A stretch of DNA of 64,000 bases, taken from the NCBI GenBank assembly GCA_003024785.1, contig PUQB01000283.1, positions 93,106 to 157,105 on the forward strand, given 5' to 3'. The position numbers and the translations under genes are program-made. Numbering within the stretch: the first letter of the stretch is position 1; every line of letters begins with the position of its first letter. The notes below the pieces were generated by a model. That model was not told the DNA's origin. It worked only from the letters and a program-made list of their open reading frames with translations, and did not search any database. This document shows positions 3,966 through 64,000 of this stretch, in pieces. The stretch comes from Selaginella tamariscina (taxonomy: Eukaryota; Streptophyta; Lycopodiopsida; Selaginellales; Selaginellaceae).

Positions 3966-4361
3966 GATTCACGTTACCTTAACAGGAAATCATGGCGTCT
4001 GGAGGGCAGCACATAAGCTGTATGAGCAGCTTCAAACGCAACACAACCTCGCCAGATGCACGAGATGTAAGAAGCAGTAGACTTAACTGGAAGGAACTGA
4101 CCGCAAACAAACTTGCATATCACCAACTGATTTCCCCAACCATTGAATACAGCTCCCACTGCAAACCTCCGTCCAGGCTGTTGCTGAAACATTTCCATGT
4201 CACGAAGCTTTCATCCTCTGTCACCATCAGTTATCAGACGTGCCTATGTGTACAGACCACGATATAGATACATTACTTAGACTCTTCTCTACCTCGGGAT
4301 TTGAAGTATAAAACGAAACAGTTGCATGGTGAGCAAACCAGTACTTGTGTTGTGGGAAAAT
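3966..4361 (-). pseudogene. Inverted partial copy of the gene at 6003-6955
   Basis: Read on the minus strand, this segment matches about 6520-6966: the end of the second exon, the small intron and most of the third exon, through the GTAACGTGAATCT at the end. It has no match to the first exon. Relative to the other copy it lacks roughly 40 bp of the third exon around 4200 and has several small indels. In-frame stops (TGA, TAA) lie just after the acceptor-equivalent site. A 74-codon frame (3974-4198) with the QQPGRRFAVGAVF motif stays open and matches a frame in the other copy, which suggests that this is the ancestral coding frame. I infer a truncated, inverted duplicate that is probably non-functional. 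Confidence 0.75.
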
Positions 4362-6002: not shown

Positions 6003-6955
6003 ATGGCTACGGCAGATGATCTACGGGATCGTCTTGCGGAGGCGCCCGTGGAGGATGCGGTTGATTTGTTGTTTCCTGATATGGACAGGAAGAGGAAGGA
6101 GGAGATTGTACTCTATCTTCACTCTGGAGGCGTGCGGGATACGCAGGAAATGAAGGAGAATTGGACTACAGAGCGGCTACACGAGGAGCTGTGTGTTCCG
6201 AAAGATGCAGAAAATGGCCTTCTTCCCCCACGTAAGTTTAGTAGCATTTCTTTCTTCATGTTCCTGCAGTTTCATACTCGCAGCTTCACGACGATGGCCT
6301 GATTATCTTCAATCAAGCAACTGGGGATCCGTCTCGGGATCTTCCAAGGGTCTTCAGTGAGGTCTCGGTTGGAGACGCGGTCGAGGTGGGGGAGTTCTGG
6401 TATAGACTGTACCGTCACGTTTGGGAAGAGGATGCCATATTCGACAGCTTTAGGAGGCTCTTGGACGAGATAACCAGATGCCATCTGCCTGTTGTCAAGT
6501 ACAGATTTAGTATGGAACTCCCACAACACAAGTACTGGTTTGCTCGCCATGCAACTGTTTCGTTTTACACTTCAAATCCCGAGGTAGGGAAGAGCTAACA
6601 TTGTCTAAGTATATCGTCGTCTGTGCACAGAGGCACGTCTGGAAACTGGTGGTGACAGAGGACGAAGAAGGGAAGTTTACTGACATCTTTAGCGGGGCTT
6701 GCATTGTCAACCAAGGAAATGTTTCGGCAACAGCCGGGACGGAGGTTTGCAGTGGGAGCTGTATTCACTGGTTGGGGAAATCAGTTGGTGCTATGCAAGT
6801 TTGTTCGCAGTCAGTTCCTTCCAGTTGAGTCTACATTACCACTGGTTCTTACGTCTCGTGCATCTGGCAAGGTCGTGTTGGGTTTGAAGCTGCTCATACA
6901 ACTTATGTCCTCCCTTCCAGACGCCTTTGGCTTCCATGATTTCCTGTTAAGGTAA
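6003..6955 (+). CDS. Unrecognised multi-exon gene, probably incomplete or decaying
   Basis: The GC-rich coding stretch contrasts sharply with its AT-rich surroundings. Proposed exons are 6003-6231 (ATG start, donor GTAAG), 6270-6583 (acceptor CTGCAG, donor GTAGG) and 6631 to about 6951 (acceptor CACAG, possible donor GTAACG). The first two junctions keep frame and give about 181 residues that are acidic and charged, with a helical N-terminal part (MATADDLRDRLAEAPVEDAV) and an aromatic part near YRLYRHVWEED. In the third exon the reading frame appears to shift near 6700-6710: RHVWKLVVTEDEE is in one frame and QQPGRRFAVGAVFTGWGNQ in another. The second frame is also open in the inverted copy at 3966-4361. 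No further exon is visible before the retroelement at 8340. I do not recognise the family. It could be a truncated gene or one with a sequencing indel. Confidence 0.55.
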
Positions 6956-6965
6956 CGTGAATCTC

Positions 6966-8339: not shown

Positions 8340-8542
8340 TGTAAGATACTGTATATTAGTTAATATACCGTATATACGCATGTGTATATACACACATGCG
8401 TAGTGACACATGGGTGGTGATCTGGCCCCCATGTGTCAGTGCCACGTGTCGCATGTGTGCCACGTGGCAGAGGTCTCCTGTATATAAGCAGGGTTTTTGT
8501 AAACTAATACATCGACATTTTCATTATATATCTGCTCTTTCA
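8340..8542 (+). repeat. 5' LTR of the gypsy element
   Basis: It starts TGTAAGATACTG and ends CTTTCA, and matches 13042-13241. It contains an 11-bp inverted repeat TGACACATGGG/CCCATGTGTCA (8404-8414 and 8428-8438) and a near-palindromic CGCATGTGTATATACACACA block. The sequence just after it, TTGGTGGAGAAGTTGGG, is the presumed primer-binding site. It is not the usual initiator-methionine tRNA match. Confidence 0.9.
8443..8487 (+). promoter_or_regulatory. LTR promoter: two G-boxes and a TATA box
   Basis: Two CACGTG palindromes (8443-8448 and 8461-8466) lie 15-38 bp upstream of TATATAA (8481-8487). The same arrangement is in the 3' LTR. CACGTG is the core bound by plant bZIP and bHLH factors, including ABA-response factors. 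A role in stress-induced transcription is inference. Confidence 0.6.
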
Positions 8543-8595
8543 TTGGTGGAGAAGTTGGGTATTCCTTTCTTCCGCCTTTTCTTTTTCTTGTTTCC

Positions 8596-9804
8596 ATGAC
8601 AATGAACATGGAGACGGCTTTTAGCATTATTGCTACTGCTATTGATGCACAAACTAAGTTGTTGGAGCGCTTTGTTGAGGGTCCGTCCTCCTCTTCCCCG
8701 TCTGAGCCTCATGCCGGGGGATCTGCTTCTAGTACTCCTTCATCTTCTTCACAGGCCACAAATCCGAGGGTTCGACCCCGATCTTTTTGTGGTGATCCGG
8801 GAGATGATGTATACCACTGGTTTGATCATTTCCAAGTCATTGTTCGTTACCATGGTTGGGATGAGGCCCGTGCTCTCAGAGAATTCCCTACATGTTTGGA
8901 AGGCCCTGCGCTCAAGTGGTATAATGGATTGGCTGCGGAGATTCAAGCCAATAGTAATCGGTTAACGGAATGCCTCAAACGTACGTTTGGCAAAGTTGAG
9001 GATTCAGATGATGCTTTCCAACAACTGCATGCGATACGACAACATCCTGGTGAGTCTGTTATGCGGTTCAGTATTAGGTTCGGGGATTTAGTTCGGCGTG
9101 CATATCCTAACATGCCTGAGCCTATTAAGCTCGGTATGTTATGGCCAACTATGCGACCCGAACTTGTTCGATTCGTTCGGGCTCTTCGTCCTACCACATT
9201 GGAGGAAGCTTTTGCACTAGCTCAACGTTTTGAGTTGGTGCCTGGTGAGGGCCGTGTTCCCCTTGGGTTACCTGCTCCTCTTGTTCAGCGTGCTGATCCA
9301 ATGGAGGTTGATGCTGCTGCATATGTGCCCGCACGGCAAGCCTTTCGTGGTCGACCTCGGGGCCCACCCCGTGGACCACCTCCACGAAATCGTCCTGCAC
9401 CTGCTCCAGTCCTGCCCGTGGTGGTCAAAATCCACGGATTCGTGACAGGAGGAATCGGAACAATGCAGGTCGACCCAATCAAGTTCATTGTTGGGCCTGT
9501 TGGGCGCCTGGACATACTTGGCGGGCATGCGATGTGTATCCTGATTGGCGTCCACCACATCCAGGCTGGCGACCATATGTTCCGGATGGTGTGCCTGTGG
9601 CGGCCATTATGTCTGATGATGAGCTTCCAGATGACGAAGCCTCTCTTGCAGTGGATCTGTTGCGGAAAACCAGTAATCGTACGGGCGACGGAGGGATCCC
9701 GTGCGATGGAAGACTTCACCTCCATGCTTTTTCCGCTATGCATATCAAGGGTTTGCAAGTTCCACCAATCATCCAGTTTTCACATTTTCTGCACGAGTGA
9801 ATGA
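8596..9804 (+). CDS. gag region, frameshifted near its end
   Basis: The ATG at 8596 opens a 402-codon frame. About residues 60-220 match the Ty3-type gag domain, with recognisable stretches DDVYHWFDHF, LEGPALKWYNGL and RRAYPNMPEP; a Pro/Arg-rich tail follows. The zinc knuckle, a CX2CX4HX4C motif reading CWACWAPGHTWRAC, is encoded at 9489-9530 in a different frame, so a frameshift lies between about 9400 and 9480. The final part of the long frame is therefore out of register. Gag would form the cytoplasmic particle that packages the element RNA. Confidence 0.8.
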   Translation: MTMNMETAFSIIATAIDAQTKLLERFVEGPSSSSPSEPHAGGSASSTPSSSSQATNPRVRPRSFCGDPGDDVYHWFDHFQVIVRYHGWDEARALREFPTCLEGPALKWYNGLAAEIQANSNRLTECLKRTFGKVEDSDDAFQQLHAIRQHPGESVMRFSIRFGDLVRRAYPNMPEPIKLGMLWPTMRPELVRFVRALRPTTLEEAFALAQRFELVPGEGRVPLGLPAPLVQRADPMEVDAAAYVPARQAFRGRPRGPPRGPPPRNRPAPAPVLPVVVKIHGFVTGGIGTMQVDPIKFIVGPVGRLDILGGHAMCILIGVHHIQAGDHMFRMVCLWRPLCLMMSFQMTKPLLQWICCGKPVIVRATEGSRAMEDFTSMLFPLCISRVCKFHQSSSFHIFCTSE

Positions 9805-10190
9805 TCTTTCAGTCACAGCTTGTGGATACAGGATCCAGTATGTCTTCCATAACTCTTCTCTAGCGCATCGGTGCTCATTACCCTTAAGACGTGCAGATAA
9901 GGTCTTGCACATTTTATATGGTAATGGGCAGTCTCGTGCAGTATCACAGTACACCACTTCGACTACGCTGGTTATGGGTGCCAACTGTAAGTTTCCCTCT
10001 GGGTCTCTTAGGGTTGTCCCTTCCCAGGTCTTTGACATCATTCTGGGATGTGATTGGTTAAAGCAGTCGAAAGGTACATGTGATTTTTCACTCTCTCCTC
10101 CTGTATTACGCTTGGAGTCTGTGTCTTGCAGTCTGTTCCTTTACGTCCAGAGAAGCTTGTTGCTGTTTGTATCACGCATACAGCTCCTTT
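9700..10190 (+). pseudogene. Aspartic protease segment of pol, broken frame
   Basis: A VDTGSSM active-site motif (DTG codons at 9825-9833) and, downstream, VFDIILGCDWL near 10029-10060 fit a retroelement aspartic protease. The two motifs are not in one open frame, and at least one indel separates them. In the family this domain cleaves the Gag-Pol polyprotein. Confidence 0.75.
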
Positions 10191-10249
10191 GATTCCGGTC
10201 TTGGGGTGGTGTTCATCTCAACAGGTTCAAATGCCGGATCCGTCACCTG

Positions 10250-11074
10250 AGTGTCGAGCACATGCATCGAACAACTTAAGAAACAGTATGCAAGTTTGTT
10301 CAAATTTGATCTGTCCCAAGGTGCACGTGTGAAGACTCGACACTGTATACCCACCGGCAATGCAAAGCCTTTCAAAGTCCCGGTTCGACGCAGGTCACCA
10401 AAGGAGTTATCAGCCATGCGAACAGCTGTTACTGATATGATTGGTAACGGTGTGTCGTCCGTCACGGAGTCCATGGGCATGTGAACCTCATTTGGTTCCC
10501 AAGCCTGATGGATCTCTCCGATTTTGTGTGGATTACCGACCTCTTAACGATGTTACCATCAAAGATGTCTATCCACTTCCGAACTCTGCCGATCTATTAG
10601 ATCGTTTGGGTCAGAGTCGATGGTTTACTAAGTTGGATTTGGCATCAGGATATTGGCAGGTTCCTATGGCTGAGGAGGATATTCCAAAAACGGCCTTCCG
10701 GACACCATTTGGTCTTTACGAGTTTTTGGTCATGCCTTTTGGATTGACTTCAGCTCCTGCCACCTTTCAACGCATGATGGATGAGCTTCTTTCCGATATG
10801 CCTGATATCACTGCCGATTTTATCGACGATGTGCTCATTCATGGGTCTGGTTCTTGGGAGGATCACATTCGTGATGTACGGCGCGTTCTTGATCGATTTC
10901 GAGAAGTTGGCCTGAAGTTGAAACTTGAAAAGTGTGTGTTTGGTTCGACCGACACCACTTACTTGGGTTACCGTATATCTCGAGAGGGTTTACAGGTGGA
11001 TCCAATGAAGTTGCGAGCTGTTCGAGAGTTCCTCGTCCCCGTACAGTACAGGAAGTCCAGCGTTTCTTGGGCAG
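10250..11074 (+). CDS. Reverse transcriptase segment of pol
   Basis: The frame 10441-11112 holds most of the RT domain: PKPDGSLRFCVDYRPLND, FTKLDLASGYWQ, TPFGLYEFLVMPFGL and the catalytic FIDD (10818-10829), which is the common Ty3 form of the YxDD box. The N-terminal part (10251-10440) is in another frame, and the frame shifts again near 11040-11075 before RNase H. It would copy element RNA into cDNA. Confidence 0.88.
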
Positions 11075-11635
11075 GTGCAGTACTTGGGTCGATTCATCGA
11101 TCATCTCACTGATCGAACTGCCCCTCTTCGGGAGTTAGTTCCACAGGTATCTTTCAGGTGGACTCGCAGGTGTCAGCAGGCATTTGACCAGTTAAAAGAG
11201 TTCCTGACAACTCCACCATTGCTTCAATACCCAGATTTTACTCGTCCGTTCATTTTACGAGTAGATGCCTCAGATGTTGGTATTGGTGGTGTATTGATGC
11301 AAACTGATGCTGTGGATTCTTCAATTCGACACCCGGTGGCTTACATTAGTCGAGTACTCACGCCGGCTGAGCGGAATTATTCCACTACTGAAAAAGAATG
11401 CCTTGCTGCTGTTTGGGGTTTTGAACGACTTCATGCCTACTTACATGGGAGTGAAACACTTTTGGAGTGTGATCATGCTGCTGTCACTTCCTTATTAAAA
11501 CGGAAGAATTTAGTGGGTCGCGTAGCCAGATGGGCATTACGTCTCCAGGTATATAACTTTAAGGTGGTGCACAGGCCTGGGCGAACAATGGTGGATCGAG
11601 CATCTCCGATTCCACTTTGCCTGCTCATGCAGTAG
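11075..11635 (+). CDS. RNase H segment of pol
   Basis: A 186-codon frame begins with the RT connection region (FIDHLTDRTAPLREL) and continues with the Ty3-type RNase H signature RPFILRVDASDVGIGG, NYSTTEKECLAAVWGFE and DHAAVTSLL, containing the expected acidic residues. It stops shortly after the VHRPGRTM motif, so it is out of frame with the integrase that follows. Confidence 0.85.
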   Translation: MQYLGRFIDHLTDRTAPLRELVPQVSFRWTRRCQQAFDQLKEFLTTPPLLQYPDFTRPFILRVDASDVGIGGVLMQTDAVDSSIRHPVAYISRVLTPAERNYSTTEKECLAAVWGFERLHAYLHGSETLLECDHAAVTSLLKRKNLVGRVARWALRLQVYNFKVVHRPGRTMVDRASPIPLCLLMQ

Positions 11636-13041
11636 CTGCAGCATTCGGTTTGATACAAGCCCCTCAGGTATTCGATGCCGACTTACCATCCTTGGAACAG
11701 TGGCAGGATGCTCAAAAACATGAACCATGGACGAGGCAATTACGCGATGCGTTTGCAAATCCGTCTTCCGAACCTCGGTTTCGACAATATCATGCTCAGT
11801 TTCGACTTCAGGATGGTTTATTGTATTTTATTGGGACAAATCCAGAGGACAGATGGCGTTTGGCTGTACCCTCTACATATGTTCCACACCTTCTTCGAGC
11901 ATATCATGATTCACCTATTGTTGGAGGTCATCTTGGTCACCAACGAGTGTTGGAGAAGCTGCCCGATCATTTTATTGGCCAGCATGCGTGGTGATGTGAT
12001 CAGGTATATTCAAAGTTGTCCCACTTGTCAAACTCGGAATTCCTCTACGACTCGGGCCATGGGGTGTTGGAATCCATCAATGTCTCTCGCCCTTTTGAGT
12101 TAATTGCAGTGGATTTAATGGGACCTTTTCCACGTTCTTCTCAAGGTAACCAGTACATCATTGTTGTATCCGATTATTTAACTCGATGGGTGGAGGTTGG
12201 TGCTCTTCCGGATGCAACTGCCATGTCAACAGCTTTGTTTCTGTTCGATAATGTGGTTTTGCAGCATTCTTGTCCAGAGCGGATGTTATCAGACAATGGC
12301 CCCGCTTTCATTGCAGAGGTATTCCGAGTGTTGTGTGAGAGGTTAGGGGTAAAACATTCATTTGCCTCTCCGTATCATCCACAAACTGATGGTTTGGTGG
12401 AGCGATTGAATCGGACCTTCAAGGGTATGATCTCGAAGTATGTGAACTTCAATCACACGGACTGGGATTGGTATTTGCGATGTTTGAGATTTGCTTATGT
12501 AACAGGCATTCAGAGTTCGATTGGTATCTCTCCATTCAAGGCATTGTATGGATATGATCCTAAGTTGCCTAGTGAATTGGGGTTATCATCGAATCTGCCA
12601 CGTGCCGAGGATGCAAAGATGTGGGCTCGACATTTGGATGCTGTTTTGCCTCTTCTGCGTGCAGAGTCTGCTGAACATCTTGGTCGAGCTCAAATGCGGC
12701 AGCAATCTTCTTACAATGCACGACATCAAATTCCACCAGATTTTGCTGACGGTGACTTAGTCCTGGTACGTTTTCCCAAGCTGACTGCACCTGGGCTTGC
12801 AACTGGTTTATTACATAAGTGGCTTGGTCCCTACCGAGTACTCCGAAAGGTTGGTCCTCAGGTATATCAAGTACAGTTGGTGGGATCTCATGAGGTTGAG
12901 ATAGTTCACGTGGTTCGAATGAAACGGTTTGTCGTTCGAGACTCGTTGAGTACATTTGGTCATACCTTAGATGGCCCAGCTCACACGGATCCAGGACCAT
13001 CAGATCCATCACCATCTACACAGCCGCAGAGGGGAGGATAG
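11617..13041 (+). CDS. Integrase segment of pol
   Basis: The HHCC zinc-binding part is split. HDSPIVGGHLGHQ is in the frame 11617-11994, and the CPTCQ pair near 12019-12033 is in another frame. The core (12016-13041) is open: D at 12112-12114 (AVDLMGPF), D at 12292-12294 (SDNGPAF) and E at 12400-12402 (LVERLNRTF), giving the D,D(35)E spacing. A GPY-type C-terminal part (LLHKWLGPYRVL) follows. The tail is Pro/Ser-rich without an evident chromodomain. The stop codon lies just before the 3' LTR. Confidence 0.88.
13026..13041 (+). other. Polypurine tract of the gypsy element
   Basis: GCAGAGGGGAGGATAG lies directly before TGTAAG of the 3' LTR, the expected place for plus-strand priming. Confidence 0.8.
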
Positions 13042-13241
13042 TGTAAGATACTGTATATTAGTAATATACCGTATATACGCATGTGTATATACACACATGC
13101 GTAGTGACACATGGGTGGTGATCTGGCCCCATGTGTCAGCGCCACGTGTCGCATGTGTGCCACGTGGCAGGAGGTCTCCTGTATATAAGCAGGGTTTTGT
13201 AAACTAATACATCGGACATTTTCTTATATATCTCTCTTTCA
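13042..13241 (+). repeat. 3' LTR of the gypsy element
   Basis: It matches 8340-8542 apart from a few single-base indels and one C/T difference. It carries the same G-box pair and TATA box. The flanking bases on the right begin AATT, as on the left. Confidence 0.9.
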
Positions 13242-20500: not shown

Positions 20501-23428
20501 AGATAGTGTGTGTGTATGTGTGTTAAAACATGTTTACTATGAGCATGAACCATCTATATTTAATATATGTATATAGTTATTTAACTTATAAATAATTTAT
20601 TTTATATATGTCTATTTATATATGCTCTATTCATGTTATCTATTATTTGAATGTGTTATTTACATGTGTTGTAAATACAAAATAAATGTGTGTATTCTTT
20701 TATGTTTACCATATTTATAAATACAAAAGTTAAATTATTGAATAAATCTTTTTTCTTTCAGAATTTAATTTTAAAAATAATTTTTAATTAGCATAATTTT
20801 AAAACTTAAAACATAATAATTTTTTTCTGACTGTTTGTCAATTATCCTTTTTTGTATATTTAAAAGTGGTCTTATAAAAAAAATAATGCTCAAGCTATTA
20901 TACATTCTTTCTTTTCCTAAATTCTATTTAAATCTTATTTTGACATTTTAATATAATAATGATTCTAAAAACATATTCTCTTACTTAATAATAAGTATAA
21001 TAAAAAAAAATTAAGTTTAATGCCTCTCTTAAAAATTTCTAAAGAAAAATTGTTATATTCTTCAAATATAAATCATGTATGATTTTACATTTTGAATATA
21101 GGAAATTATATATTAAATAATTATGAATGCTTTGTTATGATTATTATAAAATTAAACATAAATATGCCTTATTAATAAACCATTTTTAAAAATTTTTGAG
21201 TAATGCCTTAAATTATGTACAATACTAAATATAAGATTTAAATAGTATATTAAAAAATAAATATAAAAAATCAAAAAATTAAGCTAGACAATTATGAATT
21301 AATTATTATAATTAAAAAATTTATTATGATTATTTGTAAAATAATATTTACTCACAAGTTTTTAACTCATTACTTATTATTTAACTTAAGTTCATATTAA
21401 AGCTTTTATAAGTGTTATTAATGTTGATTTCCATCACTTTAGACATATATATTTCTTTGAAATTTTAAAACATATATACTTAATAAATCTTTCAATTTTA
21501 TAAACGAATGTAGTTTAATACTATAAAAACTTTTACATCTTTTATTATAAAAAGTACATGTATAATTTAAAATATTTATATAATATTTATGTTTATATTA
21601 AGTTTTTGTTTTTTAATCTTAACTCTTTTGTCATATTTAATACTCTTTTTATTTTTTTAAATTTAATCACTTCTTTATAATTTATTTTAAGTTTTATGTT
21701 ACAAACAAATTTGTGTATATATGTGTTCTATGTATAATATTCATTTTTGATAAAAAAAATGTAAGTGATTGAATTTCTACATTAAAATATTTATGATAGG
21801 TTGTTAACATATAATGTTTTTTATAACATGAATTTCATACCTCATTTACTTTACCCTTAGAATAATAAAACAATATTATCTTAAAAACTAACAATGTGAT
21901 AGCTTTTTATAAATATATTTAAATTAAAAAATTTAATCAACGTGAACACTCATTTGTAAGTATGAGTGTGATTTTGTAATAAAATGTGTTTAATAATGTT
22001 TGTATATATGTGTTTATATTCTTTAACATACACTTACAAAAATAATTAAAATTTTAAAACAAGTAATAACAAATTTAAGTTTTAATTCTATTGAATTTAT
22101 AATATATCAATTAAATTTATCAATAAGTGACAAGATACTATTATTATTAGTGATCATACCAATTTAGCTAAAAATACTTATTTTTAAACTAGTATAAAGG
22201 TTAGATAATTAATAATAATAACAATATTTAATTTTATCATATATATACACTTAATGTTTGTAAGTTTATTATTAATAGGATATTATTAAAGTATAATTTA
22301 TCTTCAAAATACTCATAATAAGGTTCATTAACTTGAAAGAATATATGCTATAACTATTTAACTTTATAAGTTTAAATAAAATAAAATATAAAGATTAAGA
22401 AATAAATGTTATTGTGAACGTGTTAAACATAAATGACTTAAAATTTATAATTCATATTAATATTTATATTATAAAATTTATATTATCTTGTATAAAACTT
22501 AAGTAAATTTAAGGATACAAATTAAAAAAACAAAGTTTTAAGTATGTAAGAATTTAAAAGGAAAACATGATAACCGTATACTTATTTATAATAAACTTAA
22601 TAAGAAAGTTTATGATAAATGAGTTTATATTTGAGCAATAATTTTAAATTTTTAATTAATTAGTATGGCGACCTAGTTTTTAAAAATGATGTATTTAAAC
22701 TTTTTTTTTTAACTAATTAATTCATTGATAATTGAGTATTATATTTACTCACTTTATTCAAAAAAGATATATTTAAAATTTACATGGGAAAACCATTTAA
22801 TATACTTTTTTTAACAAGTATATTCTATTAAGTAAATTTTAAGTATATTTACATTTTCTTAACGATGTCTTTTATAATCATGGGGAGGGACGAGTTACAA
22901 AAATTAATTATAAACGCTTCCTTCGTGATGTGAAATATGTCAAGAAGGTATTTAATAAATGATTTTCATATAACAACTTTGTCCAATATCTGTAATTTTT
23001 AAAAGTCATGCATAAATACTATAAGACACGTTTTCTAATTAAGTGTTCCTTACCACACAAATTAAAAGAACCTATGTTAATAAAATAAAATATTAAAAAA
23101 AATTAAATTCATCTATTAATAACATATGATTTTAAATTTTAAATTTAAATATTACATAATTAATATGTTAAAGACGATATGACAAGATAAACAAAAATGA
23201 AATAGGTTTGTAAAATGTTTTTGATATATCATTTGTATAAAAAATGATGTATGATATTGCAAAAAAAACATATTATTTTATATTATTTAATCATAGTACA
23301 TATGTAAAAAATTTACTTATATATTCATATGTAATGCATATATGTAGAGTTATGTGACATTAATACATCTCTTATTTTTCATTATACACACATGTATGTA
23401 TATTAAAATAGGTAAATTTTTGTATTTA
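17591..23428. other. Long AT-rich gene-free region
   Basis: Nearly 6 kb of highly AT-rich DNA without any ORF above 60 codons. I see no transposon ends, RNA gene or strong repeat in it beyond homopolymer and TA runs. Confidence 0.7.
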
Positions 23429-25275
23429 TATGATAGCCTCAATTAGCTTTACTTTATAAAAGTATAACATAAAAAAAATTTAATTTGGTAAATATTTTGT
23501 ATTACTAATAAATAAGATTGTTTTGTTTATAGATGTTCCTTTTTATTTATAACATTTTAAATAGATAGTGTATTAAGATATGTAATTCAAATATTTTTTT
23601 TATTTGTTTTTTTACTCCTTAGAACTTGAAGTTTTTTAAATATACCAAACATAAAAATGATGCTTCTTTAACTTATTTTTATATTTTTTTTTATCTTTTT
23701 TGTTCTCAATTCTCATTTAATTGTATGTTATTTATTTTAAAATTTTCATATATTAAATATAATAATAAGAAGTTACATTTATCGTTATGAATTAATTTTT
23801 TATTATATTAATGATGATTTTATTGTTATAATGTATTTTAAAAAATTTTGATAAAAAATTCACCTTTGAATCAAGTTTTATACGATCCTTCAAAATTTTA
23901 AAATACATTATATATATTATGTTAAATATAAAAAAAACCACTTTAATTATTCATGTTATGCAATTCAAAAATTTATTTTATAAATGATAATGTAAGTTAT
24001 GTGATTAAGTATAAATTATAGATTAATTGTAATATATTTTAAAAGTTACTGAATTTATGAAATTCAAAACAAAGTTTGTTTTAAGGTTACTAAAGGGTTT
24101 ATATATAAAAAATTAAATTATTTTTCTTATGTTTTGAGTAATTACTATATAATATTTACTATCTTATTTTAAATGTTTTTCTTAAATTTAGTAGTCTTTC
24201 AAGAATAAAAAATTCATAAATATTATATTTTATACTCTATTGATTATTATTATAACATCTTACGAAGGTAAAATAAAAAAAGAGTACAAAAATTATAACA
24301 TTGAAAATTGAAAAATTATACGTTATTTAAGTTATATAATAACATTTGAATGATAGCTTCAATTAGCTTTACTATATAAAAGTATAACCTATTTTTTTTA
24401 ATTTGGTAAATATTTTGTATTAATAAAAAATAAAATTGTTTCGTTTATAGATGTTCCTTTTTATTATAACATTTTAAATAGATAGTGTATTAAGATATGT
24501 GATTCAAATATTTTTTTAATTTTTTTTTACTCCTTAGAACTTTAAGTTTTATTAAATATAACTAAACATAAAAAAGAGATGCTTCTTTAACTTATTTTTA
24601 TATTTCTTCTTTATCTTTTTTTTTCTCGATTCTCATTTAATTGTATGCTATTTATTTTTAAAATTTTCATATATTAAATATAATAATAAGAAGTTACATT
24701 TATTGTTATCAATTAATTTTTTATTATATTAATGATGATTTTATTTTTATAATGTATTTTTAAAATTTTTGTAAAAAATTTACTTCTGAATCAAATTTTA
24801 TATGATCCTTCAAAATTCTAAAATACATTATATATATTATGTTAAGTGTAAAAAAAACCATTTTAATCATTCATCATGTTATAAGATTCAAAAAACTATT
24901 TTATAAATGATAATGTAAGCTATGTGATTGAGTATAAATATATAAATTAATTATAATATATTTTAGAAGTTATTGAATTTATGAAATTTAAAGCAAAGTC
25001 CGTTTTAAAGTTACTAAAGGGTTTATATATAAAAAAAATAAATTATTTCAGTTATCGTTTATGTAATTACATATAATATCTACTATCTTATTTTAATGTT
25101 TTTCTTAAATTCAATAATCTTTCAAAAATAAAAAATTTATAAATATTATATTTCATACTCGTGTTGATTATTATTATAACAACTTATAAAGGTACAATGA
25201 AAAAAAAGTACAAAAATTATAACATTAAAAATTGAAAAATTATACGTTATTTAAGTTATATAACAACATTTGAAC
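23429..25275. repeat. Tandem duplication, about 0.92-kb unit, two copies
   Basis: The unit starting ATGATAGCCTCAATTAGCTT near 23430 recurs near 24352 and stays collinear to about 25275. Landmarks found in both copies are TTTATAGATGTTCCTTTTTA, TCTCATTTAATTGTATG, ATACATTATATATTATGTTA and AATTATACGTTATTTAAGTT. Copies differ by scattered substitutions and short indels. No coding content. Confidence 0.9.
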
Positions 25276-38141: not shown

Positions 38142-38479
38142 CTTCTTTTTTAGCCTAAACCTTTTAGGTTTCAAATCTAAAATAAGAAAAGAGCATATTC
38201 CATTTTCAAATTTAAAATGATACACAGAATATGTTTATTACTTATCAAGTTGTCTAGATTAAAAAAAAACTTTGAAGAACTTAATCTTATTACTTTGAAA
38301 ATCACTTCCACACTTTGTTAAAAAAAAATTTGAAATTGCAATATTCCTTCGTTCTCGTAGAAAAAATAAAAGTTATTAAAATACATATGTATCTAATATT
38401 ACCAGTGCAACCAGCGTGGAGCCTTTTATTTTTACATGTTTTTAATAATTAAAAATTGTAAGTAAATGAGAAAAATATT

Positions 38480-38616
38480 TTTATTTATTATACTCACAAA
38501 TCTTCCAGGCATTAAAATATTTTGCTCATTTACTTACAATTTTTAATTATTAAAAATTGTAAGTAAATGAGCAAAATATTTTAATGCCTGGAAGATTTGT
38601 GAGTATAATAAATAAA
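38480..38616. repeat. Perfect 137-bp palindrome with no spacer
   Basis: The arms 38480-38547 and 38549-38616 are exact reverse complements around T38548. The flanking segment 38447-38478 repeats part of the right arm again in direct orientation (AAAAATTGTAAGTAAATGAG), so the block contains three related copies. It lies about 340 bp upstream of the phosphatase-like gene. It could be a foldback element, a recent inverted duplication or an assembly artefact. Confidence 0.95.
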
Positions 38617-39288
38617 CATAATACAGAGTGATTAAATTAGACTGGTTTTCACATCTTTGCGTGTCCTGGATCAAATAATATAAAATTTGAGTAATCCTGG
38701 TAGTATTAATTTAATGTTTCCTATGGGCAAATAACAAAAGATGTAAAGTGTGTGTCCGAGAGAGAGTGATTGGTTTAAATTGTTAAGGTAGCAGCTACAA
38801 CTGTATACCGAACGGTTGGTATTCCATGGAGGTTGTGAAATGGTATATAAGGATAGGTCCCTAGAGCGATTAACCTCAAGACTCATAAAGATAATGTGAT
38901 CAGACTTAGACAAGCTCATACCAATAAAAATGTGTTACTACATATCGCATGACAAAAGCTATTTACAGGTGAACAATCGCTCTATAGAACTGGGACAGGT
39001 CATAACTAACCCCTCATGGACATGATTTAAGGTTGGTACAGGTAGATTAATGTTAAGCAACCCCAAACACATAACCACGCTATGAAAGACTGTAACTAAC
39101 GAACTTACTTAAGTTGTTCAATCCAGATATTTTATACACCTTCAGGATGAACACCTTGCCAGAAAGCTCATCCGATTATGAGACATTAGAATTAAACTTT
39201 CCTTTAGCAAAAAATACCTAATTCCCCAATCTATGGGTCAATCTCCTTCTCTAAATGCTCGTGGGAAACAAGTTCTACGGCTACATAT
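38617..39288. other. Less AT-rich intergenic DNA, unknown origin
   Basis: The region 38700-39290 has higher GC and complexity than its surroundings but no ORF with recognisable content. It may be a transposon relic or an untranslated region. Confidence 0.4.
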
Positions 39289-52386: not shown

Positions 52387-52868
52387 TACACGCCTTTATT
52401 ACAGGGCCAGAAACATCGGAGGGCGACTGGATATGCCCAAAGTGTGGGAACTCAAACTTCGCATTTAGGACGGTCTGCAACATGCGTAAATGCGGAACGC
52501 CAAAGCCTGCAGAACCGGTTTGTCCAAATCGTGTTTTCATAACCCCCGGTTTAATTCATGACACGCACCAGGTCNNNNNNNNNNNNNNNNNNNNNNNNNN
52601 NNNNNNNNNNNNNNNNNNNNNNNNNNNNNNNNNNNNNNNNNNNNNNNNNNNNNNNNNNNNNNNNNNNNNNNNNNNNNNNNNNNNNNNNNNNNNNNNNNNN
52701 NNNNNNNNNNNNNNNNNNNNNNNNNNNNNNNNNNNNNNNNNNNNNNNNNNNNNNNNNNNNNNNNNNNNNNNNNNNNNNNNNNNNNNNNNNNNNNNNNNNC
52801 CCCGGATCCCCCACAGAAGAGTAGTTCCCGTAAGTCTCTCTATCTCTCTGTCACTGTCTCTCTCTCTC

Positions 52869-56124: not shown

Positions 56125-57409
56125 CTGCAGTCATTAATCAACTCAATAAGGAGTATGTTGATCTTTTCAACTTTCACTTATCATCTGGGGCCAAGATTGC
56201 GACACGCTACCCTATTCCAACTAGAGATGCTAGGCCAATCATGGTACCTATTCGGCGTCAATCACCAAAGGAGCTCAAGATCTTATGAGTGAATGTTAAG
56301 GAGATGTTGAAGAAAGGTGTTATTCGAAATCTCAAAGTCCTTGGGTGTGCGAACCTCATCTTGTGACAAAGCCAGATGGGAGCATTCAATTTTGCATCGA
56401 CTATCGCCCATTAAATAATGTAACTATTTTAGATGTGTACCCACTTTCTCATATTGCAGACCTTTTGGATCGACTGGGCGGAGCCGTTGGTTCACCAAGT
56501 TAGATCTCGCCTTTGGATATTGGCAAATTCCGATGTCTGACATGGACATTCTAAAGACTGTTTTGGACACAATTTGACTTGTACGAGTTCTTGGTGATGC
56601 CTTTCGGTTTGAGCAATGCTCTAATGACTTTTCAACGTATGATGGACGAGGTTCTCTACAATATGTCGGAGTGACTGCTGACTTCATCGATGATGTTTTA
56701 ATCCACTCGGATGGAACGTGGAAGGAGCATGTCGGTGATGTATGCAAGGTTTTGGATCAGCTGTGGGAAGTTGAAGCCGTTTAAGTGTGTGTTTGGATCC
56801 AAGGACACCACTTATTTGGGTTATTGCATTTCACGTGAAGGTTTGCAAGTCGATCTTGACAAACTGGTTGCAATTTTGAAGTTCCCTACGCCGAAGTGTG
56901 TGAATGATGTGCAACGCTTTCTTGGTAAGGTACAATATCTGGGTCATTTTGTAGATCATCTTTCAGATCATACTGCACCATTGCGGGTGCTACTGAAGTC
57001 ATCAATGACTTCTTTTGTTTGGTCTAAGGATTGCAAGCAGGCATTTGTAGATCTCAAAGAGCTGTTGACGACTCCTTTAATTTTGGTGTACCCGGATTAC
57101 ACTCGTCCTTTCATCTTGCGTGTAGATGCTTCTGACATCGGTCTCAGGGGCATATTGATGCAGGAGAGTACAAGTGTTCCTGGCCAACGACGTCCCATTA
57201 TGTACATCAGTCGTACGTTACAACCAGCAGAGGTGAACTACTCCACAATAGAAAAGGAGTGTCTAGCAGCAGTTTGGAGTTTTGAGAAGCTCCATGCCTA
57301 CTTGCATGGTTTGCAGACGTTGTTGAAAGGTGACCATGCAGCAGTCACATCGTTGTTGAAGCGAAAGAATTTGATTGGCCATACTGCTCGGTGGACCTTG
57401 AAGCTTCAA
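56125..57409 (+). pseudogene. RT and RNase H remnant, truncated by insertion
   Basis: The N-terminal RT region (INQLNKEYVDLFNF) starts near 56138. Core motifs DVYPLSHIADLLDRL, YEFLVMPFGL and FIDD (56683-56694) are spread over several frames. From 56711 a 259-codon frame is open: CVFGSKDTTYLGYCISREGL, the RT connection and RNase H (RPFILRVDASDIGL, STIEKECLAAVWSFE, DHAAVTSLLKRKN). It runs out of retroelement sequence at 57409, where the nested LTR begins. Confidence 0.85.
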
Positions 57410-57550
57410 TGTCAGAGTTTTAACCCAAAGGGCCAACACGTGGCTGCCGGGTGGCCATTCAGCGTCATCACCCTGTGTGAGCAACGCTAAGTTTCCCAGA
57501 ACAACCCCAACGACCCCTAAGGTTAGACTCTAATGCCCAAGTGGACAGGA

Positions 57551-57703
57551 GACTTAGGGTTTAGCCTAAGTCTCCCTAGAGTGTCTGCCCCTAAAACCCT
57601 TGAGGATAACCCTAGTTGACTTAGGGTTTAGCCTAAGTCTCCCTAGAGTGTTTGCCCCCAAAACCCTTGAGGGATAACCCTAGTTGACTTAGGGTCTTGC
57701 CCT
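57551..57703. repeat. 67-bp tandem repeat within the LTR, about 2.3 copies
   Basis: GACTTAGGGTTTAGCCTAAG starts copies at 57551 and 57618, and GACTTAGGGTC starts a partial copy at 57685. Each full copy contains the CTTAGGGTTTAGCCTAAG hairpin and an AACCCT-type motif. The same array is in the other LTR (about 62801-62955). Confidence 0.9.
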
Positions 57704-58404
57704 AGAAGACCTAGACAGGCTCATGTCCTAACCCCCATCGAGGAGACGTGTGTTCCACACATACCCCTAGACAGAGCTAAGGCATCGTCACTTACCCCTT
57801 GAGGAATCACCCTCATCCGGGAGTACGACCCCTTTAGGGCGACAAGGGGGTACCCTGAACCATGACTAACCCCTAAGGGTTTGAGTGGCCAAGTTATACC
57901 CTAGACCTAGGGCTAGTACTTAGTGAGGACACGAGTGTGCGCCGTAGGCGGACACGAGTGTTCTGCTAAGCAAACTCCCTAAGGCTAGGTTTGGGATAAC
58001 CCTAAGCACACGACCTTGCGAGTGCCTTACGAAAGGGCTTCTGCTAATGAGCTTAGGTTGTTCAACCCCTGGATTCCAAGGAGAACACTTCCCTAGCCAA
58101 GTGTGCCAAAGCACACCTAGTTACGAAACCTAACCTCCCTTGAGTGGATGCCCAAGGCTTAGCACCCTAGTGCAAGCACAAGCATGCCTGTTTGCTAAAG
58201 TATCCAACCCTTTAGTGACATGCCCATGACATAACCCCAAAGGGCGTGCCTCGGGCGTTGTACCATGTGACGTTTAGCCCAGTGTCACATCTCCATGTGA
58301 CACTGCCTTCTATGATGTGGGCTATCATGCCATAGCCCTTAGATTCAAGAGTTGCACCAAGTACCACAAACATGGTTCCTAAATGCCAACTCTAGAACCC
58401 CTCA

Positions 58405-58686
58405 ATGAACCCTCAAGAACCAGGTAACATGAACCTGTCAAACAAGATCCCACGCCCACAGTTGGACAAGGACACAGATGTGCCTTGCTTAGCCGTGAGT
58501 GCTACACCTAGCTTGACGTGGAGGAGGAGGCTGGAGATAAGCCTCAACCTCTGCCTCTTGGAACGTGCATTTCGACAAGACCTCCCAGGCATGGATTCGC
58601 CAACGTTAAGGATAAGCTACCCCGAAGGTGGGACGTACCCCTGGCATCTGGAAGTTAGGGCGGCACAACAGAGGGTTGTACCTTAA
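58405..58686 (+). other. 93-codon ORF inside the LTR, antisense to the element
   Basis: An ATG frame, MNPQEPGNMNLSNKIPRPQL at its start, that is also open at 63649-63930 in the other LTR. The two differ by about seven transitions, of which three change the residue. No family recognised. Being open in two recent copies of the same LTR is not independent evidence of translation. Confidence 0.35.
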
Positions 58687-58876
58687 CGACACAAGCTGAA
58701 GCTTGCACCGGCAGAAGAGCAACGAACTCATTCATGAACCCAGGAGCTCTCCTACGTATACTCTACTTTATTTATGTGACGGAGCCCCCCCCCCCTCTTT
58801 TCCTGTTTGTGTTAGTGGGCTGGCACTGAATTTTAGCCCCTTAGACAAATTAGCAATATGAGCTTATAACTCACCC

Positions 58877-58975
58877 TTACTCCTACCCCTAAACCCTACC
58901 CAAGGGGGTGGGGGTTTTAGGGCATGGGTTAGGGCAACCCTAGGGTTAGGTCAACCCTAGGGGTTCCTAATCCTA
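58877..58975. repeat. Telomere-like degenerate block in the LTR
   Basis: CCCTAAACCCTACCCAAGGG and then GGGTTTTAGGGCATGGGTTA, GGGCAACCCTAGGGTTAGG form irregular plant-telomere-like motifs on both strands. They are not an ordered telomeric array. Confidence 0.7.
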
Positions 58976-59465
58976 CTTAACACGCCGAGCTCATCCAATC
59001 AGCCTATTCGGGACTAACCAAAACTAACATATCATTTATGCGGAGTTAGCCAAAAGTTCACATAATTTCATTACCCCCCTTGCATTACGCGAAGCCAAGT
59101 ACTTCAGAACCGTCGTTCACTGAGTCGTAAACCCAGCGCGGAGGCACCACCTGCGACATGAAGTCACTGGAGACCTTTTGCACGTCTGCAAAGTCTGTCA
59201 CCCGACGCACACAACACTGGTTAATTTCTTTACTTAACTAGAATTTATATTGGAGGCCTCTAGTTAGTGTTGTTGCCGGCCCCTTGGTTAATAAGAAATA
59301 AAGACTTGCTTTATTCCTTAATATTAAACTATTGACGACCCTGTCGTCTAGACACAACAAGCACTTCTCAAATGCTTGACCAAACACCTTCACGTTTCTC
59401 CAATTGTTCCACATTCCACATGTTATGGTATTATAGCTTACATCTGCATCCCTCGGTGTTTCTCA

Positions 59466-62400
59466 TTACCCCTTTTCATAAGGGTCTGCTACTATACCTA
59501 TCCTTTAGTATATAGCTACGCCAGACTAAGTATGAGACTTTTATCGGAATCAAGCTCTTTTCCGATAAGAGTACAAGTCGTAAAACCCTGTTCTTTGTAA
59601 ACATGTCAATCTGGCCAGAGGCGATCACAGAGGCGCATGGCTGTACACATGTATACAACAAGGTCTTGCCAATCTACCAACTGCCATTCACTTGGTGTTT
59701 ATTAACATAAATTTATTCCCGATAGGAATCAAATTCAGTCAAATCCGCGACCAAGTGTGATAGCCTTACCATTCGTCTTTCGCAACCATCTTTGTACTCT
59801 TTCATAACACCGACCAGTTCAGGGACCAGATAAGCTAACATACCTTTCTTACAAACCAATGTGGAAACCAGGAAATTCAACCCATCTCTAGTGCCTCAAT
59901 CGACAACCTTTAGATAACACGTCTTAATTGTCATCTCATTGTACTCATTCCCCAAAGAGCACATCATACTAGATGCCGTTCAATACTTCCTAACTCTTTA
60001 TCTACTAAGTTCAAAATACCAAATTTTAAGACTTAGTTTCCACGATAAGAGTCTCTCTGAATTCAGAATACTGCACGCCTCCATAACATTATATTTATTT
60101 CCAACTCTTAAACTGATTTCGTAAATGTTTCTCAACACTATACCGAAGTATAGCATTTCACTAATTGAAGCAATTAGTTTTTGATAAACATCTTTTTAAA
60201 CTAATCCTTATTCTATAAAAATTGTAATTTCGATATTGATACTTTGAATGGATAATGATCGTTTTAACGTTCAAATCCTAAGCTTATCAACTAGTTGTTA
60301 TACTAGCGATATAAACTTACAATCATATCAATTTATCAAAATGCTACAACTATAATATAGACATGGTCTTAGTTTACATGAACCGAACTTCAATTTTGAG
60401 ATGGAATATAATGTTATGACAGTATTTCCGAGGAACTTTGTTCAGAGACTAAGAGGAATCATGAACTAGTGTCTGGTTCATCTAATTGATTTAGTAAGAT
60501 ATCAACCTCCACATAAATGTTATCATAACACTGAAGTGTTATATCAACTTCATGTTTTAGTCATACCTTATAATTCAATAGATCTCCCCAAACATGAATA
60601 AAATATCTAGTTCAGTACATTGAACTAAGATACATTATTCACTCTAGACACCTAGCAATCCAGAAAGTATCACATTGCCCCTCAAGCAATGTATTGAGAA
60701 ATGTCTCATTTCTCAACTAACTTGAAAACACGTTTCAAGTTATAACACTAAGGTAGTGCCTTACCAAAGTGTAGACTCAAATCCACTTGAGTCTTTATAT
60801 TTATGATTACGGCCACCTCATGTGATCATAACCAAGTTTGATATTGAGCGCTCCAAACTCAATATTGAAGAGATATCATACTATACTTTGACAAGTCATT
60901 TATAATCAATCTTAAAAGATTGTCAAAATATTTCAAAGTTTAAATATAAATATCTCACAGATGAGGTGATAGGAAACCTCATATTCTCGAACCGGATATT
61001 GGACGAACCTTGAACTACAATCATCAAGAAGGGACACCATCTTCTTGAGCTAATCCCGCTACACAATATCATACTTACAAGAATATTGAACCAACTCAAG
61101 GAACACCATCAAACCTTGAGATAGAACTAACAACTAACCCAAGGAATACAATCAAACCTTGAGTCAAGAATAGTTCTATTTTTCAATATTCCGAAAGATT
61201 GAAGATACATACTTTATTTGTTCTTTAAGTGCCCACATTTGCGACCATGATGCAGAGTCAAAGAATAATCGTATTCGACTCTAAAATGAAATTGATATTG
61301 AAAATCAATATCAACTTTTAATTCTCATCGAACACCGACTCTCTGAGGAGGTACATGCACTTAAACCTCCAATGGAAATCCGACTATTACTAGCTCATTG
61401 GTAATTCTCAACATAAGTTATCAAACTTAGCAAGTTTCCTTACTTAGTCGATAAACAAAGTGAAGAATCCCAAATCATGCTCTTCTTAACCAAGGAATCA
61501 CCCTTGTTCAAGAGCTTATCCCCACATTGCAAACAACGTTACAATTTCAAGATTAAAGAGTTAAAATGAAAATGCACAAGTGTGCGCCGAACGCCTTCAC
61601 TATGCAAGTCTTCATTACTCAGTAAACTAAAAATGTAAACGTATGTTTCCAACATTTCTCTTTCTGATAGATCATGCCATCTATCCCAAAACTGATATTG
61701 ATAAGAAACAAAATTCTCTAGCTATTATCCGAAGTTTCTCTCATGATCTCTTATGAAACAACTTCATAATCGAGCTAGCTAACTTGAATACAGAGTGCAC
61801 GCTTACAACTAACTAAGGTTTCAAGTTGTACTAAGTTCAAATTAGGTGACTTGAACTTAGTAAACTATTCCACCTAATGTTACTTGTAGCTAGCATCATC
61901 AAAATATTGCGAACATCGGACAATACTTTGATTACATTGGATCTTCGAATCAACTTTTAACATATTCATCATATGTTAAATTTGACATTTCGTTGTATTA
62001 TAAGTTCATCATCATAGTCTGCTTTTGGAGTTATACTCTGAAAAACACGCACTATAATGAGAGCTTATTTTACACTTTATGTCAAAATGTAGTGTTCATT
62101 CTTATGTTTGAATATGCCCCTTCTCCGAAGTCAAAGATGCACTTCTGAACATAAGTCTTTCCCCGTTTGAACACTATTGGACGATATTGAATCTTGACTA
62201 AGCCAAAACTCAATGGACACTGTTGTTTCAAATCATGTGTTATCCCAAATTCAAACACCTTAAAGAAAAAGAAAAATTTTCAATAATGTGTAGCTTAGGA
62301 TATCACAAGACCACTTCACAAGACTTAGTTTGTAAGCCAGAACAAACTAACATGCCACGTCTTGTGGAAGTAATGGTAAAGTAACCTGGACAACCATAAG

Positions 62401-62634
62401 GTAAAATAACCTGGCATACAACTTGGAAGCTGACTTCCAAGTGCTACCTTCTAAGTCCATAACCCACACCCACTTATGAAGTAGGTGTACTCTGAAGAGT
62501 TATAGATCTCAGGACCAACTCTCCACGCAGAATTCAGACATTAGCCGAAAGTGATAGAGTACTTCAAGAATTTAGAACTAACTAAACCCTAAAATACACT
62601 ACACTTTAGGTAGTCCTACTGACCGTAGAGAATA
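59466..62634 (-). other. Internal noncoding domain, dense array of short hairpins
   Basis: Perfect inverted repeats follow one another almost without pause. Examples (stem/loop): 59541-59568 (8/12), 60160-60178 (7/5), 60525-60542 (8/2), 60694-60716 (9/5), 60720-60740 (8/5), 60773-60794 (8/6), 60907-60922 (7/2), 61024-61048 (8/9), 61292-61314 (10/3), 61830-61861 (11/10), 61956-61980 (10/5), 62325-62350 (8/10), 62421-62442 (9/4). Nested pairs also occur: GAATATTGAA at 61081 with TTCAATATTC ending at 61191 encloses ATAGAACTA/TAGTTCTAT (61121-61179). No coding frame is visible. The pattern suggests a strongly folded RNA. Confidence 0.8.
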
Positions 62635-62647
62635 GGCTCCGATACCA
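62635..62647 (-). other. Primer-binding site of the nested element
   Basis: Minus strand TGGTATCGGAGCC, two bases inside the LTR end. It matches the complement of plant initiator-methionine tRNA except for one G in place of A, and sets the orientation of the element. Confidence 0.85.
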
Positions 62648-62649
62648 AT

Positions 62650-64000
62650 TGTCAGAGTTTTAACCCAAAGGGCCAACACGTGGCAACACGTGGCTGCCAG
62701 GTGGCCATTCGGCGTCATCACCCTGTGTGAGCAACGCTAAGTTTCCCAGAACAACCCCAACGACCCCTAGGGTTAGACTCTAATGCCCAAGTGGACAGGA
62801 GACTTAGGGTTTAGCCTAAGTCTCCCTAGAATGTCTGCCCCCAGAACCCTTGAGGGATAACCCTAGTTGACTTAGGGTTTAGCCTAAGTCTCCCTAGAGT
62901 GTCTCCCCCAAAACCCTTGAGGGATAACCCTAGTTGACTTAGGGTCTTGCCCTAGAAGACCTAGACAGGCTCATGCCCTAACCCCCATCAAGGAGACGTG
63001 TGTTCCACACATACCCCTAGACAGAGCTAAGGCATCGTCACTTACCCCTTGAGGAATCACCCTCATCCGGGAGTACAACCCCTTTAGGGCGACAAGGGGT
63101 ACCCTGAACCACGACTAACCCCTAAGGGTTTGAGTGGCCAAGTTATACCCTAGACCTAGGGCTAGTACTTAGTGAGGACACGAGTGTGCGCCGTAGGCGG
63201 ACACGAGTGTTCTGCTAAGCAAACTCCCTAAGGCTAGGTTTGGGATAACCCTAAGCACATGACCTTGCGAGTGCCTTACGAAAGGGCTTCTGCTAATGAG
63301 CTTAGGTTGTTCAACCCTGGATTCCAAGGAGAACACTCCCCTAGCCAAGTGTGCCAAAGCACACCTAGTTACGAGACCTAACCTCCCTTGAGCGGATGCC
63401 CAAGGCTTAGCACCCTAGTGCAAGCACAAGCATGCCTGTTTGCTAGAGTATCCAACCCCTTAGCGACAAGCCCATGACATAACCCCAAAGGGCGTGCCTC
63501 GGGCGTTGTACCATGTGACGTTTAGCCCAGTGTCACATCTCCATGTGACACTGCCTTCCAGATGTGGGCTATCATGCCATAGCCCTTAGATTCAAGAGTT
63601 GCACCAAGTACCACAAACGTGGCTAAATGCCAACTCTAGAACCCCTCAATGAACCCTCAGGAACCAGGTAACGTGAACCTGTCAAACAAGATCCCACGCC
63701 CACAGTTGGACAAGGACACGGATGTGCCTTGCTTGGCCGTGAGTGCTACACCTAGCTTGACGTGGAGGAGGAGGCTGGAGACAAGCCTCAACCTCTGCCT
63801 CTTGGAACGTGCATTCCGACAAGACCTCCCAGGCATGGATTCGCCAACGTTAAGGGTAAGCTACCCCGAAGGTGGGACGTACCCCTGGCATCTGGAAGTT
63901 AGGGCGGCACAACAGAGGGTTGTACCTTAACGACACAAGCTGAAGCTTGCACCGGCAGAAGAGCAACGAACTCATTCATGAACCCAGGAGCTCTCCTACG
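62650..64000 (-). repeat. 5' LTR of the nested element, cut by the window edge
   Basis: Collinear with 57410-58755, offset 5240-5244. It has one extra AACACGTGGC unit near 62685 and scattered substitutions, many of them transitions. It keeps the 67-bp tandem repeat, the 11-bp hairpin (63528-63553) and the 93-codon frame (63649-63930). Confidence 0.93.

Follow-up and report, generated by a model that had tools for sequence, protein, structure and literature searches.

What can be inherited, and what can selection act upon, in an LTR element whose interior encodes no protein and is crowded with short hairpins? The question is raised by the right-hand end of the window (the whole stretch of 64,000 nucleotides of Selaginella tamariscina DNA that was analysed), where a preliminary description, made by eye, had placed such an element at 59466-62634 and had proposed that its RNA may be selected for its structure.

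Anatomy of the element and its insertion site

That the hairpins belong to an LTR element is borne out by two similar LTRs, TGTCA..TGACA ends, a primer binding site (PBS) and a 5-bp target duplication, TTCAA, flanking the whole. Its parts are as follows.

57407..59014, minus strand: left LTR (the 3' LTR on this strand), truncated, delimited by alignment to the right LTR and to other copies
59015..62649, minus strand: noncoding interior with hairpins, within which 59466-62634 falls
62635..62647, minus strand: PBS, recognized by its sequence, TGGTATCGGAGCC on the minus strand
62650..64000 in the window, minus strand: right LTR (the 5' LTR on this strand), with the plus-strand letters TGTCAGAG at its start

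The left edge originally given, 59466, was wrong, since the boundary between LTR and interior falls at 59014/59015 when this copy is aligned to its right LTR and to further copies. In other copies, the left LTR runs about 200 bp past the point matching 59014 and terminates in ...CTATGACA, after which comes a C-rich stretch (read in three copies) that is the polypurine tract of the minus strand. The window copy is without these roughly 200 bp of the far LTR end, the polypurine tract and the first interior bases, and its interior is therefore 59015-62649, about 3.6 kb long. The right LTR has a full length of 1,798 bp and ends at contig position 157552, 447 bases past the window; over the part in the window (1,324 aligned columns) the two LTRs are 97.3% identical. 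A 2-nt spacer separates the PBS, which we take to be of the initiator-Met tRNA type, from the right LTR. Both LTRs contain a 67-bp tandem repeat (57551-57695 and 62801-62945), and hairpins of the form GACTTAGG...CCTAAGTC are found in the left one at 57548-57575 and 57618-57639. The insertion point falls within a Ty3/gypsy ORF, at its RNase H region (56702-57487; PF17919, E 1.1e-30; PF17917, E 5.2e-30), and the flank past the element, read from stretch L065 beyond the window end, continues, by eye, as gypsy coding sequence.

A large family with a common noncoding interior

The genome searched was the window's own assembly (300.7 Mb, 1,391 contigs). A 32-mer spanning the LTR/PBS junction gave, with at most three mismatches, 603 forward and 601 reverse matches in the whole genome, against none in either direction for the reversed pattern used as a control, from which about 1,200 LTR/PBS junctions per genome are estimated. 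All 20 of the sampled zero-mismatch junctions are followed by this noncoding interior, 85-94% identical (16 match over the full 1.2 kb fetched and four over 238-926 nt), as do all three matches of a pattern that barred the usual base context near the junction. No autonomous coding partner was thus found among 23 sampled junctions of about 1,200, which leaves room for a rare one. Two LTRs, a PBS, a target duplication, many copies and a common interior without a gene lead us to class the element, on its sequence, as a LARD-like non-autonomous LTR retrotransposon on the minus strand, the likeness to LARDs being one of description.

At two places, LTR/PBS junctions in the same direction lie 5,460 bp (G000:C258, 349257 and 354717) and 5,533 bp apart (G000:C334, 2433 and 7966), a spacing that is expected for tandem arrays with a common LTR and suggests their presence. 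A more diverged subfamily was also sought by taking the most divergent copy in the first sample as query; this copy has full-length relatives at 82-86% identity, which points to an old copy and away from a second subfamily.

Copies for comparison came from 20 of the places found in the first genome search, from 20 junctions out of 100 listed (in roughly contig order, their interiors unseen at the time of choice) and from 16 of the 44 matches listed for the diverged query (chosen toward low identity); having been chosen by listing order or for low identity, they are not a random sample. L002-L008, duplicates of L009-L015, and L001, the window's own copy, were left out. L061, with 358 nt matched, was dropped from the 59466-61500 set, so that 15 of the 16 stretches fetched with it, besides L065, were used. 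L072, 99.9% identical to L070, was dropped from the tests of branch changes, covariation, G.U states, consensus folds (59466-61471) and pairing in structures A and B (see below). The resulting samples were the 21 copies nearest to the window's, 41 copies for 61450-62649, and 36 and then 52 copies for 59466-61500 (51 without the near-duplicate).

Coding capacity and known RNA families

The interior had been described as devoid of ORFs, and indeed open stretches are at chance length in 21 of 21 interiors, the longest measuring 74-104 aa against a mean of 94 in mono-shuffled sequence. A search for hidden coding capacity yielded nothing above chance: none of nine ORF pieces from the interior matched LTR-element proteins, and a weak Pfam match to RecJ_OB on a 73-aa piece (E 0.01; 16.3 bits, cut-off 27) was taken as chance. 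The same holds for three sub-threshold Rfam matches in 57300-64000, the best being Yfr20 with 28.4 bits against 44, while no Rfam family reaches its gathering score in the window. In particular, neither a hammerhead ribozyme nor 5S RNA has an Rfam match in the window or in 57300-64000 (a scan that stops with the window, inside the right LTR), and no known microRNA family matches at Rfam thresholds in either.

Hairpins in excess of chance

Perfect Watson-Crick stems with loops of 2-12 nt were counted and compared with 200 shuffles keeping dinucleotides within 300-nt blocks. At least a dozen perfect stems of 8-11 bp had been noticed by eye; the count for 59466-62634 is 13 stems of at least 8 bp (8-12 bp), far above the shuffle mean of 0.78 (sd 0.83, maximum 4), and the excess is found equally with stems of at least 7 bp (20 vs 3.12) or at least 9 bp (8 vs 0.22). 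The 13 hairpins are listed below.

59541..59568: 9 bp, loop 10
60160..60178: 8 bp, loop 3
60525..60542: 8 bp, loop 2, at the tip of structure A
60694..60716: 10 bp, loop 3, found in 21 of 21 copies
60718..60742: 10 bp, loop 5, all pairs invariant in the alignment of 36 copies
60773..60794: 8 bp, loop 6
60841..60865: 8 bp, loop 9
61024..61048: 8 bp, loop 9, all pairs invariant in the alignment of 36 copies
61292..61314: 10 bp, loop 3
61829..61862: 12 bp, loop 10, at least 8 bp in the window copy only, among 21
61956..61980: 10 bp, loop 5
62325..62350: 9 bp, loop 8, all pairs invariant in the alignment of 41 copies
62421..62442: 9 bp, loop 4

When arms made of simple repeats are excluded, 13 of 13 stay, against 0-5 per tile in 18 other 3.2-kb tiles of the window, which without this filter are raised by microsatellites to up to 54 stems. 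Although the interior is hairpin-bearing as claimed, it is so together with the LTRs (four stems vs 0.34 in 57400-59460, all four within 57407-59014, and three vs 0.21 in 62650-64000), which makes the excess a property of the whole element. Nor is the chain regular throughout: a run of 11 stems of at least 7 bp occupies 60525-61120 with centres 23-84 nt apart, but elsewhere gaps reach 614 nt. Within the interior, a 32-nt hairpin module is present twice in direct orientation (61089-61120 and 61132-61163; 88% identity, 43 bp apart), and some hairpins may therefore have been born by duplication.

Folding energy and strand

Folding energies of the single copy, calculated in 150-nt windows against shuffles, gave for the interior a mean z of -1.92 on the sense strand (19 of 40 windows below -2) and -1.98 on the antisense strand (18 of 40). 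The corresponding sense and antisense means are -2.12 and -1.58 in the left LTR and -2.77 and -2.06 in the right LTR, against -0.35 in the remaining window (41 of 382 windows below -2). Consensus folds were computed in 120-column windows from 19 diverse copies (19 of 52 for 59466-61471, 19 of 41 for 61465-62640). Mean z is -2.64 sense and -2.11 antisense over the 33 windows of the first region, and -3.55 and -2.01 over the 19 windows of the second; one z of -13.9 in the consensus analysis is due to shuffles that barely fold. The interior thus folds better than shuffled sequence in single copies and in consensus, 61450-62649 included. Sense is the lower strand in 21 of 33 windows (p 0.19) and in 15 of 19 (p 0.026), and in 36 of 52 when both regions are pooled (Wilcoxon p 0.013), p values that are optimistic given that the windows overlap by half. 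On balance, then, the fold is better on the strand of the would-be genomic RNA, with statistical support. An asymmetry of G.U states at perfect stems (shared sense-G.U type, 42 vs 19 in short stems; 110 vs 75 in three long-loop stem classes pooled) is weak and suggestive only.

Changes during spread and after insertion

On a tree of copies, internal branches hold the changes that occurred while the element spread and terminal branches those that followed insertion. In the 21 nearest copies, a test of variation looked strong, but singletons in stems were depleted too (23 vs 52.7), and larger samples were taken for this reason; in these 21 copies there is no contrast between internal and terminal changes (odds ratio 1.18, p 0.70), both being depleted to about 0.3. 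In the 41-copy set, variants shared by at least two copies number 4 in short-hairpin stems of at least 7 bp, against 15.3 expected from base context, while singletons in the same stems are not depleted (21 vs 17.3). Such stems in 59466-61500 carry 48 internal-branch changes where 91.6 are expected and 227 terminal ones where 260.9 are expected (odds ratio 0.60, p 0.001); the figures for 61450-62649 are 7 vs 24.3 and 34 vs 48.1 (odds ratio 0.41, p 0.028). Controls made of helices of at least 6 bp with long loops of 41-80 nt, selected likewise, give odds ratios of 0.89 and 0.92, neither significant.

The direction of this contrast held in eight of eight tests, four with p <0.05, when stems of at least 7 bp were chosen from one copy at a time, that copy being excluded from the test, although one of the eight rested on a single change in total. 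With stems of at least 8 bp picked in this way it held in six of seven tests, one with p <0.05 and one reversed (1.30), and a further test had no changes. The 16 long-loop controls for the stems picked from single copies have odds ratios of 0.86-1.19, none significant. Shift tests that preserve the layout of the stems are weaker (p 0.01-0.50 for short stems across samples and cut-offs), and one control class, stems of at least 7 bp with loops of 41-120 nt in 59466-61500, is equally depleted in shared variants (14 vs 30.9, p 0.001): either some of the long helices are real (e.g. 61081-61090/61182-61191) or the test is loose. Overall, changes in hairpin stems were removed more often than changes elsewhere during spread, a statement that is statistically supported.

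Covariation and two predicted domains

Compensatory changes, which the preliminary description had named as a check, were counted against a null in which partners are permuted. In 51 copies of 59466-61500, 11 types of compensated pair occur at short stems where 6.0 are expected (p 0.018), and 17 where 9.7 are expected with stems of at least 6 bp (p 0.008), against p 0.13-0.68 in four control classes. The null is as high as 6 because seven of the 11 types are G-C to A-T, the direction of ordinary C-to-T decay. An excess of shared double changes that keep pairing is found with the fold of copy L014 alone (18 vs 7.7, p 0.003; of 24 shared double changes in all, 18 keep and six break the pair), with that of the window copy (16 vs 7.5, p 0.003) and with that of the old copy L066 (15 vs 9.7, p 0.04), and the antisense fold of L014 has the same excess (18 vs 6.7). 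For 61450-62649, one compensated type against 0.3 expected is not significant (p 0.29), and double changes that keep pairing (1 vs 0.5 and 2 vs 0.9) are too sparse to judge. The check thus came out in favour of a fold in 59466-61500 and found too few changes for a verdict in 61450-62649. Two parts of the interior stand out.

60478..60586, minus strand: structure A, a hairpin of 43 bp, nearly continuous, predicted for the sense RNA (z -5.5)
61075..61197, minus strand: structure B, a predicted branched fold with closing stem 61081-61090/61182-61191 and arms 61095-61120 and 61121-61179

Structure A spans about 109 nt, with 43 pairs, bulges and a 4-nt loop, and is the clearest place of covariation. 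Its nested pairs 60486/60578, 60506/60560 and 60527/60540 are in a compensated state in eight, three and nine copies, respectively, and G.U states occur in further copies at the first and third of these. Of its changed cells, 121 of 173 are still paired (0.70 against a null of 0.63; p 0.001), whereas the number of compensated types in structure A alone (5 vs 3.1, p 0.15) is not significant. Structure B folds with -40.4 kcal/mol in the sense RNA (z -7.0); changed cells stay paired at a rate slightly above that of the null (0.44 vs 0.40, p 0.02), and compensated types are not in excess (3 vs 3.2). It corresponds to a nested form that had been reported at 61081-61191, here confirmed and slightly larger (closing stem of 10 bp, 7 bp at 61095-61120 and 9 bp at 61121-61129/61171-61179). 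The second nested form reported, CTAGCT/AGCTAG, exists at 61718-61723/61773-61778 but is weak, its inner 6-bp GAAGTT/AACTTC stem competing with a 7-bp stem.

What the fold may be for

We favour, with reasonable confidence, the explanation that this is a noncoding LTR element with a selected RNA fold which is used by the proteins of an autonomous partner; the element probably owes its spread to the folded RNA itself. It would be transcribed from its LTR on the minus strand, and the RNA would form a succession of local hairpins and small branched domains. This fold might then be used by the Gag and reverse transcriptase of some autonomous element, most likely for packaging, for dimerization or as a stability scaffold, after which a tRNA primer would start the copying of the RNA, followed by integration. 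As the interior encodes no protein, selection would act there on the RNA fold. Much of the interpretation first offered is in keeping with these results, namely the LARD-type noncoding interior, the excess of structure and the evidence for selection on the fold; what has to be given up is the left edge and strict regularity, and the three roles it named (packaging, small RNAs, a protein scaffold) are not told apart by sequence alone. A bolder version, to which we would give only a small chance, is that the interior is an RNA-only genome in which protein genes have been wholly replaced by selected hairpins and junctions, including a 43-bp precursor-like hairpin, that hijack the partner's particle or the host small-RNA machinery, so that a family of about a thousand copies would have an RNA fold as its entire heritable trait.

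Rather improbable, too, is an explanation at the level of DNA, whereby near-palindromes are perfected by template switching in reverse transcription or repair, or serve as protein-binding sites, with RNA folding incidental. Template switching at near-palindromes would also yield paired double changes, and the DNA-level explanation would fit the similar z of the single-copy interior on both strands, the perfect Watson-Crick nature of the majority of the listed stems and the equal covariation excess of antisense folds. However, in 36 of 52 windows the consensus fold has its lower z on the sense strand, structure A has bulges and a long span and varies through sense-strand G.U states, and repair on a template should leave its mark on inserted copies too, whereas terminal changes at stems come close to neutral in the larger sample. 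Somewhat less probable again is that the hairpins, structure A above all, are Dicer-like substrates whose small RNAs act on the element, its partner or the host. Plant microRNA precursors are of a size comparable to structure A, which with some 109 nt, 43 pairs and a 4-nt loop is also the best-covarying place; against this, most stems have 8-12 bp, too short for Dicer-like substrates, and no known microRNA family was matched at Rfam thresholds.

Two further origins are very improbable. Decay of an ordinary coding LTR element might be suspected from the location inside a Ty3/gypsy element and from a PBS of a type common in plants, but the same noncoding interior is found at 23 of 23 sampled junctions, no ORF exceeds chance in 21 of 21 interiors and the nine interior ORF pieces are without a match to LTR-element proteins. 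Chance and composition, that is, the production of such stems by AT-rich sequence with microsatellites, is the least credible of all. The up to 54 raw stems in other tiles would speak for it, but these are simple repeats, counts with complex arms being 13 here and 0-5 elsewhere, and since local dinucleotide shuffles yield 0.78 stems this explanation is rejected at that level.

Comparison with known elements

LARDs are characterized by a long noncoding interior, LTRs, an assumed mobilization in trans and 'well-conserved RNA secondary structures' (PMC7215508). The element here shares with them (e.g. Sukkula of grasses) long LTRs, a conserved noncoding interior of kilobase size, the absence of gag-pol and an assumed trans-mobilization; conserved RNA structure is supported here as well, within the limits given above, except that covariation in 61450-62649 is not significant. 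With LTRs of 1.8 kb and an interior of 3.6 kb, it differs in its dimensions and is likened to LARDs by description. TRIMs and Cassandra are also non-autonomous and geneless, and Cassandra is reported to form tandem arrays with common LTRs (PMC7215508); the junctions 5,460 bp apart suggest LTR-sharing arrays here too. TRIM LTRs are short (a few hundred bp or less) with almost no interior, in contrast to 1,798 bp and 3.6 kb here, and unlike Cassandra the present element has no 5S RNA match in Rfam. Retrozymes are reported to be LTR elements of plants, non-autonomous as well, whose way of life depends on RNA structure (PMC4918200). The element here resembles them in these respects and differs in having no hammerhead ribozyme match and a far longer interior and LTRs. 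In Ty1, folded RNA motifs serve packaging and dimerization (PMC5454406), a role for folded LTR-element RNA which may apply here as well, although the Ty1 domain is the 5' region of a coding RNA whereas the folds described here span a noncoding interior.

Among the open-licence papers listed, none with a test of selection on a LARD interior was seen. With some 1,200 copies of the family in a single genome, the contrast between changes during spread and changes after insertion offers a way to test selection on noncoding retrotransposon RNA, and it directs attention to two domains with a testable role, 60478-60586 and 61075-61197.

Other features of the window

Elsewhere in the window, 8340-13241 is a Ty3/gypsy element with gag-pol-like ORFs between direct repeats (8340-8542 and 13042-13241, 96% identical) that are probably its LTRs. 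A tandem duplication of about 930 bp, 90% identical, lies at 23424-25274, and a run of N at about 52,570-52,820 appears as X in translated ORFs. Two inverted arrangements were also seen, one of 145 bp that match their own reverse complement at 98% (38476-38620), the other a two-piece inverted repeat, 86-88% identical, at 3965-4357 and 6519-6964.
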